IMG/VR virus record: IMGVR_UViG_3300035698_006503
Span: 1-27,827 of that record
Origin: a virus
Strand: one strand, 5' to 3'
DNA length: 27,827 nt
Each line of letters starts with the position of its first letter. Position 1 is the stretch's first letter. Positions 15,820 through 27,235 of this stretch are shown here, piece by piece. The position numbers and the translations under genes were made by a program. A model generated the notes under the pieces. That model worked only from the letters and a program-made list of their open reading frames with translations, did no database searches and was not told the DNA's origin.

Positions 15820-16143
15820 ACCAACTAAAGAAGTCCCTCGAAGCCTTGGGCCGAGAGATAATAACAACCGAGTGCCTAGCCCTGCGGGTAAATAACCTGA
15901 GGGCCGCGACCATCGACACCCCGCACACGGGCCTTACGTGGAGGGCACCCCCTGCTACGAGCCGGTGGATCTCTGACCGTAAAGAGCCCGTGCACATGCA
16001 GGTGCAACGGGGACCACCCGAGCTTAGTGTGTCAGGGATGTAAGAGGTCGGAGTCCGGGCGCCTGGGGTGGTTGGGCAGCAGCGACGAACGTAGACTCCA
16101 AATCATAAAAAACTGCGAGGAACGTAAACGTGAACAAGAATGA
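15804..16143 (+). CDS. Small zinc-binding-type protein, frameshifted
   Basis: From ATG 15804 the frame reads MHGELDQLKKSLEALGREII and runs on to about 15945. Its own frame then ends at 16043 with poor-looking sequence. Another frame continues from about 15955 with SPCTCRCNGDHPSLVCQGCK and ends at 16143 (NCEERKREQE). A single-base deletion in the C run 15948-15952 joins them into a 112-residue protein; two one-base insertions (for example at the G runs near 15930 and 15965) would also work. The Cys pattern CxCxC...CxxC suggests a zinc ribbon. The corrected end overlaps the next gene by 14 bases, like its neighbours. Function unknown; possibly a transcription or nucleic acid-binding regulator. 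Confidence 0.6.
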
Positions 16144-16615
16144 GTTAATGAAAAGGTTTAACGCACTGGTCCGACATGTGGGGTGTACGGACCTCACGCG
16201 CTGCAAGGACTGCGTGGGCTGCGTGGGCTGCTCGGACTGCAAGGACTGCGTGTACTGCGTGGGCTGCTCGGACTGCAAGGACTGCGTGTACTGCGTGGGC
16301 TGCTCGTACTGCTCGGACTGCAAGGACTGCGTGGGCTGCGTGGGCTGCTCGGACTGCAAGGACTGCGTGTACTGCGTGGGCTGCTCGTACTGCATGGGCT
16401 GCTCGGACTGCACGGGCTGCGTGTACTGCGTGGGCTGCTCGGACTGCACGGACTGCACGGACTGCTCGGACTGCAGGTACTGCACGAGCTGCTCGGACTG
16501 CTCGGACTGCATTCTGTGTGTGGAACTTCGGGATGTCCGCGACGGGTACTGGCTACTCAATGAGGAGGTGACTGAGGCCGAGTACTCAGCTGCGGTAAGG
16601 GAGCTCCGGTCATGA
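16130..16615 (+). CDS. Cys-triplet repeat protein: Cys at every third residue over residues 25-130
   Basis: A 161-residue protein from GTG 16130 with GAGGAA nine bases upstream. After a short helical start (NKNELMKRFNALVRHVG) it contains 37 cysteines; from C25 to C130 every third residue is Cys without a break (36 in a row). The intervening pairs are mostly VG, SD, KD, VY and SY. The C-terminus (VELRDVRDGYWLLNEEVTEA) is an ordinary acidic domain. There is no signal peptide, so it should be cytoplasmic and reduced, able to bind many metal ions or form a regular solenoid with stacked thiols. I know similar Cys-triplet phage proteins only as uncharacterised. Frame use is secure: it overlaps both neighbours, and the other two plus frames are only repeat shadows. 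Confidence 0.75.
   Translation: MNKNELMKRFNALVRHVGCTDLTRCKDCVGCVGCSDCKDCVYCVGCSDCKDCVYCVGCSYCSDCKDCVGCVGCSDCKDCVYCVGCSYCMGCSDCTGCVYCVGCSDCTDCTDCSDCRYCTSCSDCSDCILCVELRDVRDGYWLLNEEVTEAEYSAAVRELRS
16202..16512 (+). repeat. Tandem 9-bp codon-triplet repeats within the Cys-triplet gene
   Basis: The DNA is built of 9-base units all starting with TGC: TGCGTGGGC, TGCTCGGAC, TGCAAGGAC, TGCGTGTAC, TGCACGGAC. Longer blocks (for example the units coding VGC-SDC-KDC-VYC) recur several times nearly identically, indicating recent expansion by slippage or recombination. The array leaves all frames free of stops, which explains long spurious ORFs on both strands. Confidence 0.85.
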
Positions 16616-16803: not shown

Positions 16804-17464
16804 CCACCTAGACGCCCGTTTGATGCAAGGGGACTACCTCGACCGCATGAGGGAACTCAGGCCCGCCTCAGTAGATATGATCCTCACTGACCCCCCTTAC
16901 GGCATGTCGTTCCTTAGCGGCTATCGCGCAAACTCACACCGCGCGATAGCCAACGACGAGCTGAGCTGGTTAGGTGGTTTTTTCAGGGAGGCGTACCGTG
17001 TGGCCGCGCCAGACACCGCGCATTATTTTTTCTGCAGCTTTCACCACGTGGACCTGTTCAAGCAGGCGTTAGAGGAGTCCTTCAAGCTGAAAAACATACT
17101 TATCTGGGAAAAGAACAACACTTCAATGGGAGACCTAAAGGCCGACTTCGCCCCCAAGTACGAGATGATCCTCTTCGCGCATAAAGGGCGGAGGAGGATA
17201 GAGGGCAAGAGGGATCCCAACGTGATGCGTTTCTCGAAGACTAGGTGTGGGCTTCACCCCACCCAAAAACCCGTGGACTTATGCGAGTACCTCCTCTCCA
17301 AGTTCAGCCTCAGAGGGGACGTGGTTTTAGATCCTTTCATGGGTAGCGGGACTACCGGTGTCGCGTGCATGAACTCCCACCGAAAGTTTATAGGCATTGA
17401 GCTGGACCACACCTACTACGGGACCTGTGTAAACCGAATACTGGAGGCCCAGTCATGCAATTAG
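16793..17464 (+). CDS. DNA adenine-N6/cytosine-N4 methyltransferase
   Basis: A 223-residue orphan methyltransferase. The catalytic motif DPPY is at residues 33-36 and the SAM-binding motif DPFMGSGTTG at 180-189, preceded by HPTQKP (155-160) and followed by FIGIELD. Catalytic motif first and SAM motif last is the beta-class order. No restriction enzyme partner is visible next to it, so it probably modifies phage DNA against host restriction, or affects regulation of phage DNA; the target site cannot be read from sequence. It overlaps genes on both sides by about 10 bases, showing translational coupling in the early operon. Full length for a minimal beta-class enzyme. Confidence 0.9.
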   Translation: MDVNHLDARLMQGDYLDRMRELRPASVDMILTDPPYGMSFLSGYRANSHRAIANDELSWLGGFFREAYRVAAPDTAHYFFCSFHHVDLFKQALEESFKLKNILIWEKNNTSMGDLKADFAPKYEMILFAHKGRRRIEGKRDPNVMRFSKTRCGLHPTQKPVDLCEYLLSKFSLRGDVVLDPFMGSGTTGVACMNSHRKFIGIELDHTYYGTCVNRILEAQSCN

Positions 17465-19845
17465 TCGAACAGCTTAAGGGCGTAGGCCTGGGCGCTTTTC
17501 CCTGCTCACTTGTATGGGACGACGACCGCAACAAATGGCAAAAAAGGCCACTTACGGTCGACGGCGAGTCCTGGCAGGTAACGGCCCGGCGACCCTTGCA
17601 GGACCCTGAAGTCCAGTGGTGCGCGAACCCTACAGTGGGGCTCCCAGTCCCCGAGGGCGTGGTTATACTGGACCTGGACACATACAAACCTGGCTGCACC
17701 ACTCAGATGGCCGAGGCTATCTTGGGCGCCCGCATCGATTGGAACGGGTCTGCACTGCAGCGCACGGTCAGTGGAGGCACACACTACGCATTCAAGGCAC
17801 CCCCTTGGGCTGTAAAGCAGACCGATAACATCGGCGGCCCAGGCAGTGGACTGGACACCCGCGTCGGCGGCAAGGGTTTTATATGCACTGGCCAGGGTTA
17901 CCACCCCCTGGGCCAAGGCGTTGTCAAACTCGCATACCCCGAAACCCTGCCTGAACTGCCGGACGCGTGCCGTGCAGCGCTTGAGCACGTGCAAGTAGTG
18001 CCTGCCGTCCCCGTTGAACTGCCCGATGGCCTCCGCGACACAGCCGTGGTTATGGAGGCACTCGGCCACGTTGACCCGTCCGCCAGAGACGACTGGAGGG
18101 ACGTCGGGTTCGCCCTTAAACACTATTTTCACGACGACGAATACACCGGTTTTGAGCTGTGGGATCGGTGGAGCTCCGGGGAGTTCTGTCCCGAGGGCGT
18201 GCCTCACAGTTATGCGGCAGACACCCAGCGAGATCAATGGGAGAGTTTTCAGGCACAGAAGGCTGGCGCTAGTATCACTATCGGAACGTTGTTTCACAAA
18301 GCCCTCCGGGGCGGGTGGCGTCCGCCCAGTGGCGTCGATGCGTTTAGTGCGTTTAGCACCGACCAGCTGCCTGCGGACGAAGTCGATCGCATACGTGAGA
18401 TGATCGAGGCCGACAGTGGGAACCTCAGCAAGCTGCGGCCCATTCTGGCCGAGATCAGTGCCATAGCCGACCCCCTTATCCGTGAGGGGGCTATCAGCCA
18501 ATTCAAGCAGTCGTTACGTGAGGCCAAACTGTACACGAGTAATCTGGGCAAAGAGATCGACGCCCAGGTCCGTGGCCAGCGCCCTAAAATGCCCGTAGGC
18601 GAAACGCCCACACCGGGCAAGGTTTTGGACGAAGATTCGGAAATGAGCCCCTTGTTGTGGAAACACGTCAAAGGGAAAGACTTGAAGCCCAAAGGAACGA
18701 GCGCTAACTTCAACACCATGATGTCTTGCTATGGCGTGCAGGTTATGTTCGACGAGATACTGAAAGAGGCGACAATAGCCTACCCCAAGCAGCACGGGGG
18801 CGTACTCAAAGACGAGGCAGCGGTGGGGCATATAGAGTCCTTGGCTAACCTCAACGAGTTCCCGACGGCATCAATCAACGCGGGCTTGAGCCAGGCAGCC
18901 CACCAGAACACCGTGAACCCGGTACGTAATTGGATCGAGTCAGCCCCTTGGGATGGCGTTAACCGCGTCGAGGAGTTCATGCGGGCCATAACACTGGCGC
19001 CGGAAGAGGACGCACAGGTGGCGGGCGTGCTTATCCACAAATGGCTGCGCGCGGCGGTGGCCATAGGGTTGGGGTTGGTTCGGAAAATGGAGTACGTTCT
19101 GGTGCTGGTGGACCCCCAAGGCGGGGCGGGTAAGACACGGTTTTTTGCAACACTAGCGCCCCCGGAGCTCATCAAGGACAGCTTGACCCTCGACCTGACG
19201 AACAAAGACAGTATAAAGATCGCGACGTCGTGCTGGTTGGGCGAGCTGGGTGAGTTGGATGGGACGTTCCGTAAGTCCGACCAAGCTAAGCTCAAGGCGT
19301 TCCTGTCGTCCCATGTGGACGAGATGAGGATGCCCTACGGCCGCACCTACAACAAGTACCCCCGGAGAACCGCGTACTTAGCGACGGTCAACACTACCGA
19401 GTTTTTGGTAGATAACACGACCAACCGACGGTTCTGGCCTGTGCGGGTCAAGTCGGTCAATCACCTGCACCAAACTAACATGCAGCAACTGTGGGCTCAA
19501 ATGTACCACGAGGTCAGCCAGGGAGCTACTTGGTACCTGAACGAGGCCGAGTCCGTGCAGCTGGCGCACCACAACGAGGACTTCCGGAGCCACAGCCGGG
19601 TTGTCGAATGCCTGATGGCTAAGCTTCCCAGAGAGGGAGAGCACACCGACCACCGCACCGTGACCGAGATCGTACAAGGCTGTGGTTTTCATGGCGCAAG
19701 TAAAGCCGACCTGAACGAGGCAGCGGCTTGGCTGCGGTCTCAAGGTTTCCGACGCTGTAAGCGGGCAGGGAAGGTGGGGTATCTTATCCCTCCCTCCGCC
19801 GCAGCAGTATTCACCCCTGAAATTATCCAAGGAGCAAAAGCATGA
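17455..19845 (+). CDS. Primase-polymerase with VirE/VapE-type helicase (796 aa)
   Basis: A large replication protein combining several domains. Residues about 10-165 are an archaeo-eukaryotic primase-polymerase domain with catalytic D73xD75 (VVILDLDTYK), SGGTHY (106-111) and LDTRVGGKGF (133-142). Residues about 190-290 resemble a PriCT-type linker domain (DDWRDVGFALKHYF). Residues about 480-720 are a VirE-type P-loop ATPase/helicase: APWDGVNRVEEF, Walker A GGAGKT at 556-561, SCWLGELGELDG as Walker B region, and NTTNRRFWPV. It probably initiates phage DNA synthesis by melting the origin and laying primers. It is coupled to the J-domain gene by an ATGA overlap. It appears complete, without frame changes. 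Confidence 0.92.
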   Translation: MQLVEQLKGVGLGAFPCSLVWDDDRNKWQKRPLTVDGESWQVTARRPLQDPEVQWCANPTVGLPVPEGVVILDLDTYKPGCTTQMAEAILGARIDWNGSALQRTVSGGTHYAFKAPPWAVKQTDNIGGPGSGLDTRVGGKGFICTGQGYHPLGQGVVKLAYPETLPELPDACRAALEHVQVVPAVPVELPDGLRDTAVVMEALGHVDPSARDDWRDVGFALKHYFHDDEYTGFELWDRWSSGEFCPEGVPHSYAADTQRDQWESFQAQKAGASITIGTLFHKALRGGWRPPSGVDAFSAFSTDQLPADEVDRIREMIEADSGNLSKLRPILAEISAIADPLIREGAISQFKQSLREAKLYTSNLGKEIDAQVRGQRPKMPVGETPTPGKVLDEDSEMSPLLWKHVKGKDLKPKGTSANFNTMMSCYGVQVMFDEILKEATIAYPKQHGGVLKDEAAVGHIESLANLNEFPTASINAGLSQAAHQNTVNPVRNWIESAPWDGVNRVEEFMRAITLAPEEDAQVAGVLIHKWLRAAVAIGLGLVRKMEYVLVLVDPQGGAGKTRFFATLAPPELIKDSLTLDLTNKDSIKIATSCWLGELGELDGTFRKSDQAKLKAFLSSHVDEMRMPYGRTYNKYPRRTAYLATVNTTEFLVDNTTNRRFWPVRVKSVNHLHQTNMQQLWAQMYHEVSQGATWYLNEAESVQLAHHNEDFRSHSRVVECLMAKLPREGEHTDHRTVTEIVQGCGFHGASKADLNEAAAWLRSQGFRRCKRAGKVGYLIPPSAAAVFTPEIIQGAKA

Positions 19846-20574
19846 GCCTATATGACACGTTGAACGTAGATCCATACGCCTCGCAGCCTGACATCAAGGC
19901 GGCATACAAGAAAGCAGCACAGAAGAGCCGCCCGGACAGAGGAGGCGACGCGGACCTGTTCCACGAGATACAGGAGGCCTATGAGGTGCTTTCTGACCCA
20001 GACCGCCGCCTCAAGTACGACAACACAGGGGAGACCGGCCAGGCCCCTGGTAAAGAGTTCCAAGCGCATAACACATTGATGGTATTGCTTAGCCAGATAA
20101 TAGCCAACCCCCAGATACCGCCCGGCGGCGTCCTCGAAGAGGCCAAGCGGCTCCTTCACAAACAGAAACGGGAGGGCGCGCACCACATAGCCTCGCAGAC
20201 CCTGGCGGCGGCCCGCACGCAGAAGATCAAGGGGGATTACGAGACGGTAGATGGCTCCGACAATCTGATCGAGGCGCTAACGGAGCAAGAGGCACACAAA
20301 GCCCTTGAGTCCGTGGCTGCAGTAGAGGAGCAACTCGAGATAATTGAAATTATGGTCACTATGCTGGATGCATACAAGTACGTAGGGGTTCGCGCAACAA
20401 AGAGCCGCACTTGACCGAGCCGAAGGCGCCTTGTACCGGCACCGCATGGGTCTGGTTCGACTCACGGATATCCTAAGCCACGTGATCACCCACGGCGTAT
20501 GTGACCGAGAGCAACTAACCCGGTTAGTTCTTGACAGATTACTTGCGGAGCTGGGAGCCCTGGACTACAGTTAA
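19842..20574 (+). CDS. J-domain (DnaJ-like) protein, C-terminal part behind a one-base frameshift
   Basis: Starts at ATG 19842 (ATGA overlap with the helicase stop, AAGGAG upstream). Residues 1-62 are a J domain: SLYDTLNVDPYASQPDIKAA, QEAYEVLSDPDRRLKYD. The invariant HPD is RPD here (R30-P31-D32). The frame stops at 20414, but the next 160 bases remain coding-like in another frame (FAQQRAALDRAEGALYRHRM through LVLDRLLAELGALDYS, stop 20574). Removing one G from GGGG at 20385-20388 yields a 243-residue protein with a long helical C-terminus. Being coupled to the replicative helicase, it may recruit or mimic host DnaJ in replisome loading or unloading. That role is inference. A separate 42-aa gene from ATG 20446 is a less likely alternative. 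Confidence 0.8.
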
Positions 20575-20595
20575 CTTACAAAGAGGAAAGTTAAC

Positions 20596-21081
20596 ATGAA
20601 AATAGAACTTATAGAATCAGTCCGCAGCATGAACGACGACGAGATATACAGCGCGATATACACCGACGCACTTACGGGCCTGTTGAACCGCCGAGCGTTT
20701 GACGCGGACGACCGCCCCTATGTAGGCATCGTCGACCTGGACTCGCTCAAGTACATAAACGACACACTGGGCCACCGCTTCGGGGACCACCAGCTCGTCG
20801 AGCTTGGCAAAGGACTGGTAGAGGCGTTCGGACAGGACAACGTGTACCGTCTCAGTGGCGACGAGTTTGTCGTGAAGTCTGAACACGCAGCCGGTCTCAT
20901 GTGGAAGCTCAGCCAACTACGACAAAGCCTGCCGGGGTTCAGTTTTGGACTAGGCCTCGGCGTCGAGCGCGCAGATGACCGACTCAACGAAGACAAAGCC
21001 CGCCGGGAACGGTCAGGACAGCGGTCTGCTCGCGGCGAGAGGCCTCCGTGGTTCGAGTCGCCCAGGTCTGCTTCTTGTTAA
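20596..21081 (+). CDS. Stand-alone GGDEF-domain protein (possible diguanylate cyclase)
   Basis: A 161-residue protein from ATG 20596 behind AAGAGGAAAGTTAAC. It is almost only a GGDEF domain: TDALTGLLNRRAF (23-35), GIVDLDSLKYINDTLGH (44-60) with metal ligands D47/D49, and the signature SGDEF at 87-91. The inhibitory I-site RxxD is absent (FGQD at 78-81). The C-terminal ADDRLNEDKARRE matches the final helix of the fold, but the stretch between signature and end is shorter than in bacterial enzymes. There is no sensor, transmembrane or EAL domain. S in place of the first G occurs in active enzymes, so synthesis of c-di-GMP is possible; a binding-only or other cyclase role cannot be excluded. It lies just before a sigma factor. 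Confidence 0.85.
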   Translation: MKIELIESVRSMNDDEIYSAIYTDALTGLLNRRAFDADDRPYVGIVDLDSLKYINDTLGHRFGDHQLVELGKGLVEAFGQDNVYRLSGDEFVVKSEHAAGLMWKLSQLRQSLPGFSFGLGLGVERADDRLNEDKARRERSGQRSARGERPPWFESPRSASC

Positions 21082-21223: not shown

Positions 21224-21820
21224 ATGTCTTTAAGAGAAAACACAACACTGACTACCTACAAAGCCGAAGTCGGCGCGGTCCCTGTGCCTGACGTGGGGGC
21301 TGAGCTGACACGGCAAGAGCTCATCACCACTAATCTGAAACTGGCGATACACATCGCTAAGAAGTACGCGCGGAACCCAGACGAGCTACTCGACCGCATA
21401 CAAGACGCTAATGTCGGGCTGTGCCGGGCTGCGGACGCATATGACCCATCACGGGGGCCTTTTTGGGCAATCGCAGGCCTGCATATTCGCGCAGCGATAC
21501 GCAACGCCAGGCAAGACTGTCTGGGTAAGTACATTAGGGCTCGCGACGTAGAAGGGCTGCCAAGAAGCAGGGGGTACCTCCCTTCAGACGAGGCGCCCCC
21601 GGACACCCTCCGGTCTCTCTACTCCCTGGCCCCGGAGGACTCACTTAGTTACTCGAGGAGCTTGGAGCAGTTCACTTCACGCCTCAGCCCACGGCAGTAC
21701 GAGGTTATGTCGCTGCGCCTCGTCGGTTATTCGCACAAACAGATAGCAGCGGAGTTGTCCTGCTCACACCAGAACGTACAACAGGTCGAGCGTGAGTCGA
21801 TGAAGAAGGTGCGCTCTTGA
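21224..21820 (+). CDS. Phage RNA polymerase sigma-70-family factor
   Basis: A 198-residue protein with two sigma modules. Residues about 30-97 match region 2: ELITTNLKLAIHIAKKYAR, then ELLDRIQDANVGLCRAADAY and a region 2.3/2.4-like GPFWAIAGLHIRAAIRNA. Residues about 153-198 match region 4: LSPRQYEVMSLRLVGYSHK, then QIAAELSCSHQNVQQVERES, a clear HTH for -35 recognition. Region 3 is short or absent. It would redirect host RNA polymerase to phage promoters, probably late ones, as no phage RNA polymerase is seen here. The end is coupled to the next gene (TTGA overlap). Confidence 0.85.
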   Translation: MSLRENTTLTTYKAEVGAVPVPDVGAELTRQELITTNLKLAIHIAKKYARNPDELLDRIQDANVGLCRAADAYDPSRGPFWAIAGLHIRAAIRNARQDCLGKYIRARDVEGLPRSRGYLPSDEAPPDTLRSLYSLAPEDSLSYSRSLEQFTSRLSPRQYEVMSLRLVGYSHKQIAAELSCSHQNVQQVERESMKKVRS

Positions 21821-22068: not shown

Positions 22069-22625
22069 ATATGATTAACCGATTGCTGTATCGACTCACC
22101 GCCCGTCTGCCCTGCCGACTTATACAGCGAGAGGACGGCGACCCGTACCTAGAGCGCTACTACGTGGGGGAGGTAATCGGTGTTACGTTCTACTTGCATC
22201 GATTCGTGTCCGAGGACGAAGAGCCGTTCCTGCATAATCACCCGTGGAACTGGGCACGTGCCCTGGTCTTGTCCGGGTCATACAATGAGGAGGTTGTCAA
22301 GGACTTATGCCCTCACGCAACCCCAGCAGGTGGGTCGGGGTGCATCACTGAGACACACAGAGTACGCTGGTGGAACCGCATAAACGGCAACCACTTCCAC
22401 CGAATCGCGGGCGCTAAGCCTGGCACATGGACTTTGTTCTTCCACGGCGAACGCGCTCGAGTGGCGATAGGGCAGTGCAGCAAGTTGAAAGGCTGGGGGT
22501 TCTTAGAGAATTTCTACGGGGTAGGACTGCACAACGTGACACTGTTCAGGCCCTTTCCGGTGTCTAGTGGTGAGTGGTGGCTGACAGCGAAAAAAGGACC
22601 TGAAGCGGGGCGCGAGCCCCTTTAG
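22065..22625 (+). CDS. Cupin-like phage protein of unknown function (186 aa)
   Basis: Starts at ATG 22065, overlapping the zinc-ribbon gene by four bases. Motifs suggest a single-domain metal beta-barrel: EEPFLHNHPWNWARALVLSG with two His in HNH, followed by HRVRWWNRINGNHFHRI with HFH, and TWTLFFHG. This looks like the cysteine-dioxygenase-type cupins seen in other phages. A metal would be bound by the three or four His. The substrate is unknown; candidates include small thiols or a modified nucleotide. It is the last gene of the early rightward operon and converges on the TetR-like gene, with the stop codons overlapping. No signal peptide or membrane segment. Confidence 0.65.
   Translation: MNMINRLLYRLTARLPCRLIQREDGDPYLERYYVGEVIGVTFYLHRFVSEDEEPFLHNHPWNWARALVLSGSYNEEVVKDLCPHATPAGGSGCITETHRVRWWNRINGNHFHRIAGAKPGTWTLFFHGERARVAIGQCSKLKGWGFLENFYGVGLHNVTLFRPFPVSSGEWWLTAKKGPEAGREPL
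22607..22624. terminator. Hairpin at the convergent gene junction (bidirectional terminator candidate)
   Basis: GGGGC-GCGA-GCCCC (22607-22620) is followed by TTTAG on the plus strand. On the minus strand it is followed after nine bases by a six-T run (AAAAAA at 22590-22595). It lies exactly where two transcription units meet, so a terminator makes sense, though the T tracts are imperfect. Confidence 0.45.
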
Positions 22626-22927
22626 ATCAACGAACCCACTGCCCTTCTGCGCACCCCTTCGGGTGCTTTCAACGCCTGAGCATCCCCTGACGCAATACCC
22701 TGAGCAATAACCGGATAGTTATGGTGCATGATCGCATAGCGCATGATGTCCTGCCGTAGCTGTAACATAGTGCCGAAGTGGTACTGAATCGCGGGACCAC
22801 TCAGCCTCACACGCGCGGCTATCTCGTCCCGCGTGACCTGCTGGTAATTTTTACGGGAAGCAAGGGCCAGTGCGGCCTTCAATATTTCCTCTTTGCGAAT
22901 CCTAGCTTTAAATCTTTTCTGTTTCAT
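22622..22927 (-). CDS. Short TetR-type DNA-binding protein (101 aa)
   Basis: From ATG 22927, overlapping the nuclease stop (TTATGA). Residues 11-55 are a TetR N-terminal domain: RKEEILKAALALASRKNYQQ, then VTRDEIAARVRLSGPAIQYHF, with the HTH at about 31-52. The large ligand-binding domain of true TetR repressors is missing; only ~45 residues follow, so it is a minimal phage form, not evidently truncated since such short versions are known in phages. It is last in the minus-strand cassette, suggesting autoregulation at 25225-25319; that target is inference. Confidence 0.8.
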   Translation of the reverse strand: MKQKRFKARIRKEEILKAALALASRKNYQQVTRDEIAARVRLSGPAIQYHFGTMLQLRQDIMRYAIMHHNYPVIAQGIASGDAQALKAPEGVRRRAVGSLI

Positions 22928-26043: not shown

Positions 26044-27235
26044 ATGTCCGACCTAGAGCACGCACCGCTTGCCCCTAGTTTTGCGCCCGTGTGGGGTCAC
26101 TGTTCTGGGGCCGTTTTGGCCGCAATGCAGAACCCGACCCCCTCCACTGCGCAGACAAGGGCCGGCAACGCGGCGCACTGGGTTGTGAGTGAGGCCCTCG
26201 AGAGTTACCAGGGCGGGAGCCTACGGGACGCGAGTGAGTGGGTAGGTACCTCCACCCCAAACGGGCTGTTGGTCGATGCCGAAATGGCCGAGGGCGCACA
26301 GGTCATGGTAGACGAGGTGGTCGAGACTGTTGAGGCCCGGAGTCGACAAGTCGGCCGTGACTTACGGGGTGACTTGCTGATCGAGTTTCGGGTCCACATG
26401 CCAGACATCCACGAGCATAACTGGGGGACGTTGGACTGCGCGCTTTATGTGCCTGAGATTTTTGTAATGCATTTGTGGGACTACAAGAATGGACACAGGC
26501 AGTGTGACGCGGAGGGGAACCTCCAGCTCATCGACTACGCCCTCGGCCTGCGTAATGCATGCGGCATCCACGGACACGTAGACCCCGCAGGTATCGGTGG
26601 TAATGCGGATAGTACAACCTTTCTGTTTTCGCAGTGAGGGCGTGGTGGACGAGTGGATCGTCAAGATGTCAGACCTCAGGGCTGACATGAACCTGCTACG
26701 CGGCATGGGCTCGGAGGCGTTCAGCAACCCCCGACTGACCACGGGGCTTCACTGCCGCGACTGTCCGGGGAAACTTAAGTGTGAGGCGCGGCGTAAGGCT
26801 GACTATAATTTTATCGACTTAGCAAATCAGCCTTACGAAATGGCTGAGATGACCAACGAAGACAAAGCAACCGAGCGGCAGATATTGGAGGACGGATTAG
26901 CTGTCGCTAAAGCACGACTAAAGGCCTTGGACGACGATCTAGAACACCAGATATCCTCGGGCAAGACAGTGCCGGGCTTCTGGCTACAGACTAAAGAGGG
27001 TCGACTGGAGTGGACGGTAGAGCCACAAGTTGCGAACGCCCTCGCCAACCAATTCGGATTCGACATAGCGCGGCCCCATGTTGCGACTCCGACACAAGCT
27101 AAACAGGCCGCACCTAAAGACATGCGCGTACACTTTGCGCAAGTACTAAAGACTATCACCCGCCGCCCGTCCGGGGGGCTAAAACTGACTAAGGCCAAAG
27201 ACAGCAGAGCTGCAAAAGCCTTTAAGAGGAAATAG
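26044..27235 (+). CDS. DUF2800 / Cas4-like Fe-S PD-(D/E)XK nuclease, split by a one-base frameshift
   Basis: From ATG 26044 (GGGAG upstream) the frame reads to D180 (HGHVD) then becomes nonsense ending at 26637; the second half is open from 26582 to 27235. Removing one C from CCCC at 26583-26586 gives HGHVDPQVSVVMRIVQP and a 396-residue protein. The active site is complete: H45, D131 (GTLDCAL), D146-Y-K148 (LWDYKNG) and Q161/Y165. One Cys near the N-terminus (C20) plus CxxCxxxxxC (about C237, C240, C246) match the four ligands of the 4Fe-4S cluster in Cas4/AddB-type nucleases. It is likely a recombination exonuclease that pairs with the ssDNA-binding protein downstream. Seen as two separate ORFs it would be misannotated. 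Confidence 0.85.

Follow-up and report, generated by a model that had tools for sequence, protein, structure and literature searches.

A stand-alone GGDEF protein of a P22-like phage belongs to a phage-only branch shared with domains of giant polyvalent proteins

The window (the whole 27,827-nucleotide stretch of IMG/VR record IMGVR_UViG_3300035698_006503) belongs to a P22-like phage, with portal, coat, head closure and ejection proteins encoded on the minus strand. One end of the 27.8 kb record falls within a minus-strand ORF (2-469) adjoining the ejection genes, and this ORF may encode the first part of a large protein of the ejection or polyvalent kind. The features of the GGDEF gene and its surroundings are as follows.

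17455-19845, PrimPol/VapE-type primase-helicase (Pfam)
19842-20414, plus strand, DnaJ-domain protein, directly preceding the GGDEF gene
20582-20589, plus strand, strong Shine-Dalgarno-like sequence AGAGGAAA, 6 nt before the ATG of the GGDEF gene
20596-21081, plus strand, stand-alone GGDEF (diguanylate-cyclase-type) protein of the YuA gp44 family, 161 aa, ATG start
20734-20763, plus strand, D47-x-D49-S-L-K52-x-x-N55-D56, holding the metal Asp, phosphate Lys and guanine Asn; invariant in 33/33 members, aligned with SadC
20785-20787, plus strand, codon of D64, the second guanine-reading residue, from the alignment of family members
20854-20868, plus strand, SGDEF signature, residues 87-91; GDEF invariant in 33/33 members, S first in 25/33
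20971-21045, plus strand, phage-specific C-terminal signature AD..L...K..R...G.R..RG..P, residues 126-150, in 33/33 members and 0/83 other GGDEFs
21224-21820, sigma-70-like protein (Pfam)

The GGDEF ORF was intact and lay exactly where the preliminary description had placed it, with replication genes (primase-helicase) and the DnaJ gene upstream and the sigma-70-like gene downstream. That description had also read this position as a sign of host takeover, an argument that we do not retain; the neighbours were not conserved among the GGDEF relatives, so gene position means little. Across 14 loci no fixed operon partner was found, only a nearby primase recurring in five. Proteins weakly similar to the DnaJ-domain protein over its full length occur in Alteromonas and Brevundimonas phages. 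No EAL or PilZ partner was present among the window proteins scanned, and the window contained neither a c-di-GMP riboswitch nor a PADLOC defence-system match. Promoter and terminator matches around the gene were at chance level only. A direct repeat, AGTTAAC with 20 nt spacing (20569-20605), flanks the Shine-Dalgarno-like sequence and may be an operator or due to chance.

Residues 22-94 of the protein matched the Pfam GGDEF family (E = 1.2e-12; 48.3 bits versus a cut-off of 23.8) and residues 6-153 matched PHROG 5594 (E = 6.5e-31). The catalytic motifs noted in the preliminary description were all intact (D47-L-D-S-L-K52..N55-D56, G63-D64 and S87-G-D-E-F91), and the metal, phosphate and guanine residues together with a [GSA]GDEF motif place the protein in the GGDEF family. 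In the alignment with SadC of Pseudomonas aeruginosa (PDB 4wxo), D47, K52, N55, D64 and SGDEF fell on matching residues; we take their roles to be those generally assigned in GGDEF enzymes, namely metal binding (D47), phosphate binding (K52) and guanine recognition (N55/D64). Equally borne out was the lack of an inhibitory site and sensor. FGQD occupies the position of the RxxD I-site, an optional trait of the Pfam GGDEF family carried by 36/83 comparison GGDEFs, and only two short helices precede the GGDEF domain in the AlphaFold2 model.

The C-terminal end differed from that of canonical enzymes. The ADxALYxAKxxGR helix, typical though not universal in the GGDEF family, was found in 0/33 branch members, which have K..R...G.R..RG..P instead. 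In canonical enzymes the C-terminal element provides Lys/Arg contacts to the triphosphate. K134 and R146 were both initial candidates for the equivalent of PleD K442, and the polyvalent members (AD....AK..R) favour K134. Conservation of the basic tail in 33 members led us to reject a frameshift artefact as its origin, and the possibility that a tRNA or another RNA overlaps this end of the gene was also excluded.

AlphaFold2, supplied with 33 aligned phage sequences, predicted a confident GGDEF fold (pLDDT 95.2, pTM 0.87) with no obvious coiled-coil dimerisation stalk. The Foldseek matches listed against the PDB were all GGDEF proteins (best E 8e-8, TM about 0.6), so by its model the protein shares this fold yet is clearly divergent. 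The best viral match was the GGDEF protein of Bordetella phage CN1 (TM 0.84), and the second-best, at 37% identity, sits within a 1143-residue viral protein model. Compared with PleD, WspR and SadC, the fold and the catalytic and guanine residues were shared, whereas the window protein has no sensor, no I-site, shortened segments, SLK for the usual xFK and no ADxALYxAK. The Hypr GGDEF (cGAMP) enzymes and mCpol/OptS of Panoptes are likewise related palm-fold nucleotide cyclases. Hypr enzymes carry Ser at the position of D64, which the window protein keeps; it is thus not of the Hypr type. mCpol enzymes are nearly without the GGDEF motif, unlike the window protein, which also gave no mCpol profile match in the Pfam and PADLOC scans.

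To place the protein among known phages, we searched phage records with tblastn, which gave 46 records at at least 80% coverage. Among the matches listed were Yuavirus-type Pseudomonas phages (50-54% identity) and Bordetella phages (about 50%). YuA gp44 and its relatives in Yuavirus and in the Vojvodinavirus Bordetella phages (FP1, CN2, MW2) are also stand-alone GGDEF proteins, of about 156 aa, 50-54% identical to the window protein over about 95% of its length, without an I-site and with the same C-terminal signature. With its full-length homology, stand-alone form and common signature, the window protein is of the YuA gp44 type, a type long on record in Pseudomonas phage YuA and not unprecedented; a 2023 review already cites the GGDEF-only protein of YuA. 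The host phages differ, the window phage being P22-like and YuA a YuA-like siphovirus, and so do the neighbours of the GGDEF gene. Directly downstream of the YuA gene lies a Pfam Antirestrict (PF03230) gene (YuA gp45, L002 6534-6959). No prophage copy was detected at E <= 1e-30 in 598 genomes, 298 from a family centred on Pseudomonas fluorescens and 300 from an order centred on a Dechloromonas, with the best 11 candidates per genome scored; six records known to carry a family member scored about 1e-50 or better in the same search. Among plasmids the single match was partial and fell on an annotated diguanylate cyclase.

A single-protein pattern search of viral contigs gave no match, and an alignment was needed to find further relatives. 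Profile searches of these contigs yielded 32 sequences, which with the window protein form a branch set of 33, each 28-53% identical to the window protein. GDEF, D47, D49, K52, N55, D56, G63, A126, K134, R143 and P150 were invariant in 33/33, and D64, R137, G141, R146 and G147 were conserved in >90%. Allowing slight relaxations, K..R...G.R..RG..P followed GDEF in every member and in none of 83 comparison GGDEFs from bacterial genomes or prophage-like contigs. This contrast is conservative because the bacterial GGDEFs compared were those most similar to the query. The signature was first noticed in eight sequences; since most of the others were found via N-terminal and DxDSLK peptide patterns only, its presence in later members is a largely independent check, although sequences taken into the set were chosen to reach the C-terminus. 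Maximum-likelihood analysis set the branch apart from 35 canonical GGDEFs (support 100/99) and placed the stand-alone members in one group (94/86). Members scored at least 152 bits with the family model and other GGDEFs at most 92, with members having helped to build the model; YuA and FP1, outside the model-building set, scored 183 and 181 bits. Values of dN/dS on three close pairs (0.10-0.55) indicated purifying selection, mild in the YuA-BL8 pair (0.44-0.55). By sequence, the window protein and the YuA-type proteins fall in a GGDEF branch that is confined to phages and separate from bacterial GGDEFs, and the signature offers a simple means to find and compare phage GGDEF genes.

The same branch extends into polyvalent proteins. 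Twenty-one of the 33 members were not of the stand-alone type, 19 lying in ORFs of >1,000 aa (maximum 2,798) and the other two in ORFs of 665 aa and, for L047, 220 aa. The window protein is itself a single domain of 161 aa and so not polyvalent in the sense of a multi-domain protein with LPD or conflict-related domains. In 24 GGDEF-bearing polyvalent segments, Pfam detected the inorganic pyrophosphatase domain InPase (8), LPD22 (4), RadC (3) and ART-PolyVal (2), with LPD5, LPD23, ddrB-ParB and PBECR5 once each; L030 also matched a DarB-like antirestriction family. InPase lay N-terminal of GGDEF in L027, L030, L031 and L045 and C-terminal of it in L037 and L038, a pairing whose recurrence in two orders suggests that pyrophosphate removal may assist the reaction. 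The giant GGDEF genes of L022, L010 and L008 lie downstream of T7-type internal virion protein genes, which is consistent with ejection of their products into the host, and some phages probably inject such proteins with their DNA. Iyer et al. 2017 had already noted GGDEF in some polyvalent proteins (PMC5512222); these domains share the signature of the window protein, but each is embedded as one domain among others in a long protein that is probably injected, and each has an additional insert before the FSYG strand, whereas the window GGDEF is free-standing. Among openly licensed papers, none was found that joined them with the YuA-type proteins. In the giant ORFs of L010 and L011, two successive GGDEF-like copies occur at about residues 680-1000, of which the first is degenerate and the second carries SGDEY/HGDEY.

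Taken together, we consider it somewhat probable that the protein is an active, GTP-using and feedback-insensitive diguanylate cyclase of a phage-only branch, made early to alter host physiology. Stripped of its sensor and inhibitory I-site, a GGDEF dimer would condense two GTP to c-di-GMP with release of two pyrophosphates, without feedback control. If the gene is expressed with the replication/early region, host c-di-GMP would quickly rise and could shift surface, pilus and motility physiology in favour of the phage, and might also disturb nucleotide-signal defences. The stand-alone and polyvalent forms would be two delivery routes for one activity, the first by early synthesis and the second by entry together with the DNA. 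We infer catalysis, early timing and host purpose, and the c-di-GMP product from the kept guanine-reading residues. Catalytic and guanine conservation, dN/dS, the GGDEF fold, the branch support and signature, the gap in family-model scores and the location of giant genes beside internal virion protein genes all count for this reading, as does the InPase pairing, since pyrophosphate removal fits a working NTP-condensing enzyme. Against it count the lack of a stalk, of an EAL/PilZ partner among the scanned proteins and of a c-di-GMP riboswitch in the window, together with the dN/dS of the YuA-BL8 pair and the rewritten C-terminus; because this element contacts the triphosphate in canonical enzymes, activity cannot be assumed. 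High c-di-GMP usually has the opposite effect on flagellar motility to the rise seen in lysogens of Vojvodinavirus LK3, which is a further count against. The LK3 genome has a diguanylate-cyclase GGDEF gene and its lysogens over-produce biofilm, which counts in favour, and show elevated motility, both being phenotypes of the whole lysogen and not attributed to this gene in particular (PMC8471281).

That raised motility would suit a non-catalytic binder, which would either capture GTP or c-di-GMP or trap host diguanylate cyclases in dead heterodimers and so lower signalling. The missing stalk and altered C-terminus point the same way, and the degenerate first copies in L010 and L011 indicate that non-catalytic copies exist in relatives. 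However, the metal and catalytic residues are strictly conserved in 33/33, which would not be expected of a binder, and there is no I-site for binding c-di-GMP; purifying selection and this conservation favour an enzyme, and we regard a binder as very unlikely. A GGDEF-fold enzyme with another product, such as a linear dinucleotide, a differently linked cyclic dinucleotide or GMP placed on another acceptor, is unlikely. It would have its triphosphate/acceptor site reshaped by the rewritten C-terminus and its product would act as a decoy or competitor against cyclic-nucleotide defences. The signature is found throughout the branch and not elsewhere, the branch occurs in polyvalent proteins with other conflict-related domains, and interference with host nucleotide responses has been proposed for polyvalent GGDEFs (PMC5512222). 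Yet the residues defining GTP use and metal-dependent condensation are kept, and no family or structure match to mCpol/OptS or other defence enzymes was found with Pfam, PADLOC or Foldseek. The alternative nucleotide synthase raised in the preliminary description is disfavoured by the retention of N55 and D64, the guanine-reading residues.

It is similarly doubtful that the gene serves lysogenic conversion, benefiting the lysogen through biofilm or through superinfection immunity via altered pili, and not early takeover. The YuA gp44 record does carry the note 'contains diguanylate-cyclase domain; putative role in host cell conversion', LK3 lysogens are hyperbiofilm formers and pili are the receptor of YuA (PMC8471281). 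The search of 298 + 300 genomes nevertheless found no member while strongly recovering known ones, and the homologous domain is also part of putatively injected proteins, whose action falls at entry. An early role is favoured over a purely lysogenic one because the branch is carried in such proteins, and the takeover proposal of the preliminary description thereby gains indirect support, from giant polyvalent proteins of which some adjoin T7-type internal virion protein genes, while its argument from gene position falls away. A bolder and quite unlikely extension is that the branch is a viral nucleotide-signal synthase lineage, used interchangeably as an early gene or within virion-injected polyvalent proteins (some with their own pyrophosphatase), whose C-terminal element would give a product or regulation unlike those of cellular diguanylate cyclases, to override or confuse cyclic-nucleotide defence at DNA entry. 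Should the favoured diguanylate cyclase be active, this phage would be one of few making a bacterial second messenger and not degrading or sponging one, and the polyvalent link, with some of the genes located beside those for internal virion proteins, suggests that a c-di-GMP synthase may enter the host alongside phage DNA.

Elsewhere in the window, a 161-aa cysteine-rich protein with CxxC-type repeats (DCKDCVGCVGCS...) is encoded at 16130-16615 on the plus strand, without a Pfam or PADLOC match, and a 101-aa TetR N-terminal-type DNA-binding protein at 22622-22927 on the minus strand, opposite to its upstream neighbours. The plus-strand ORF at 26044-26637 matches DUF2800 over the first part of the profile and is overlapped in another frame by a plus-strand ORF at 26597-27235, a possible frameshift of natural or assembly origin.
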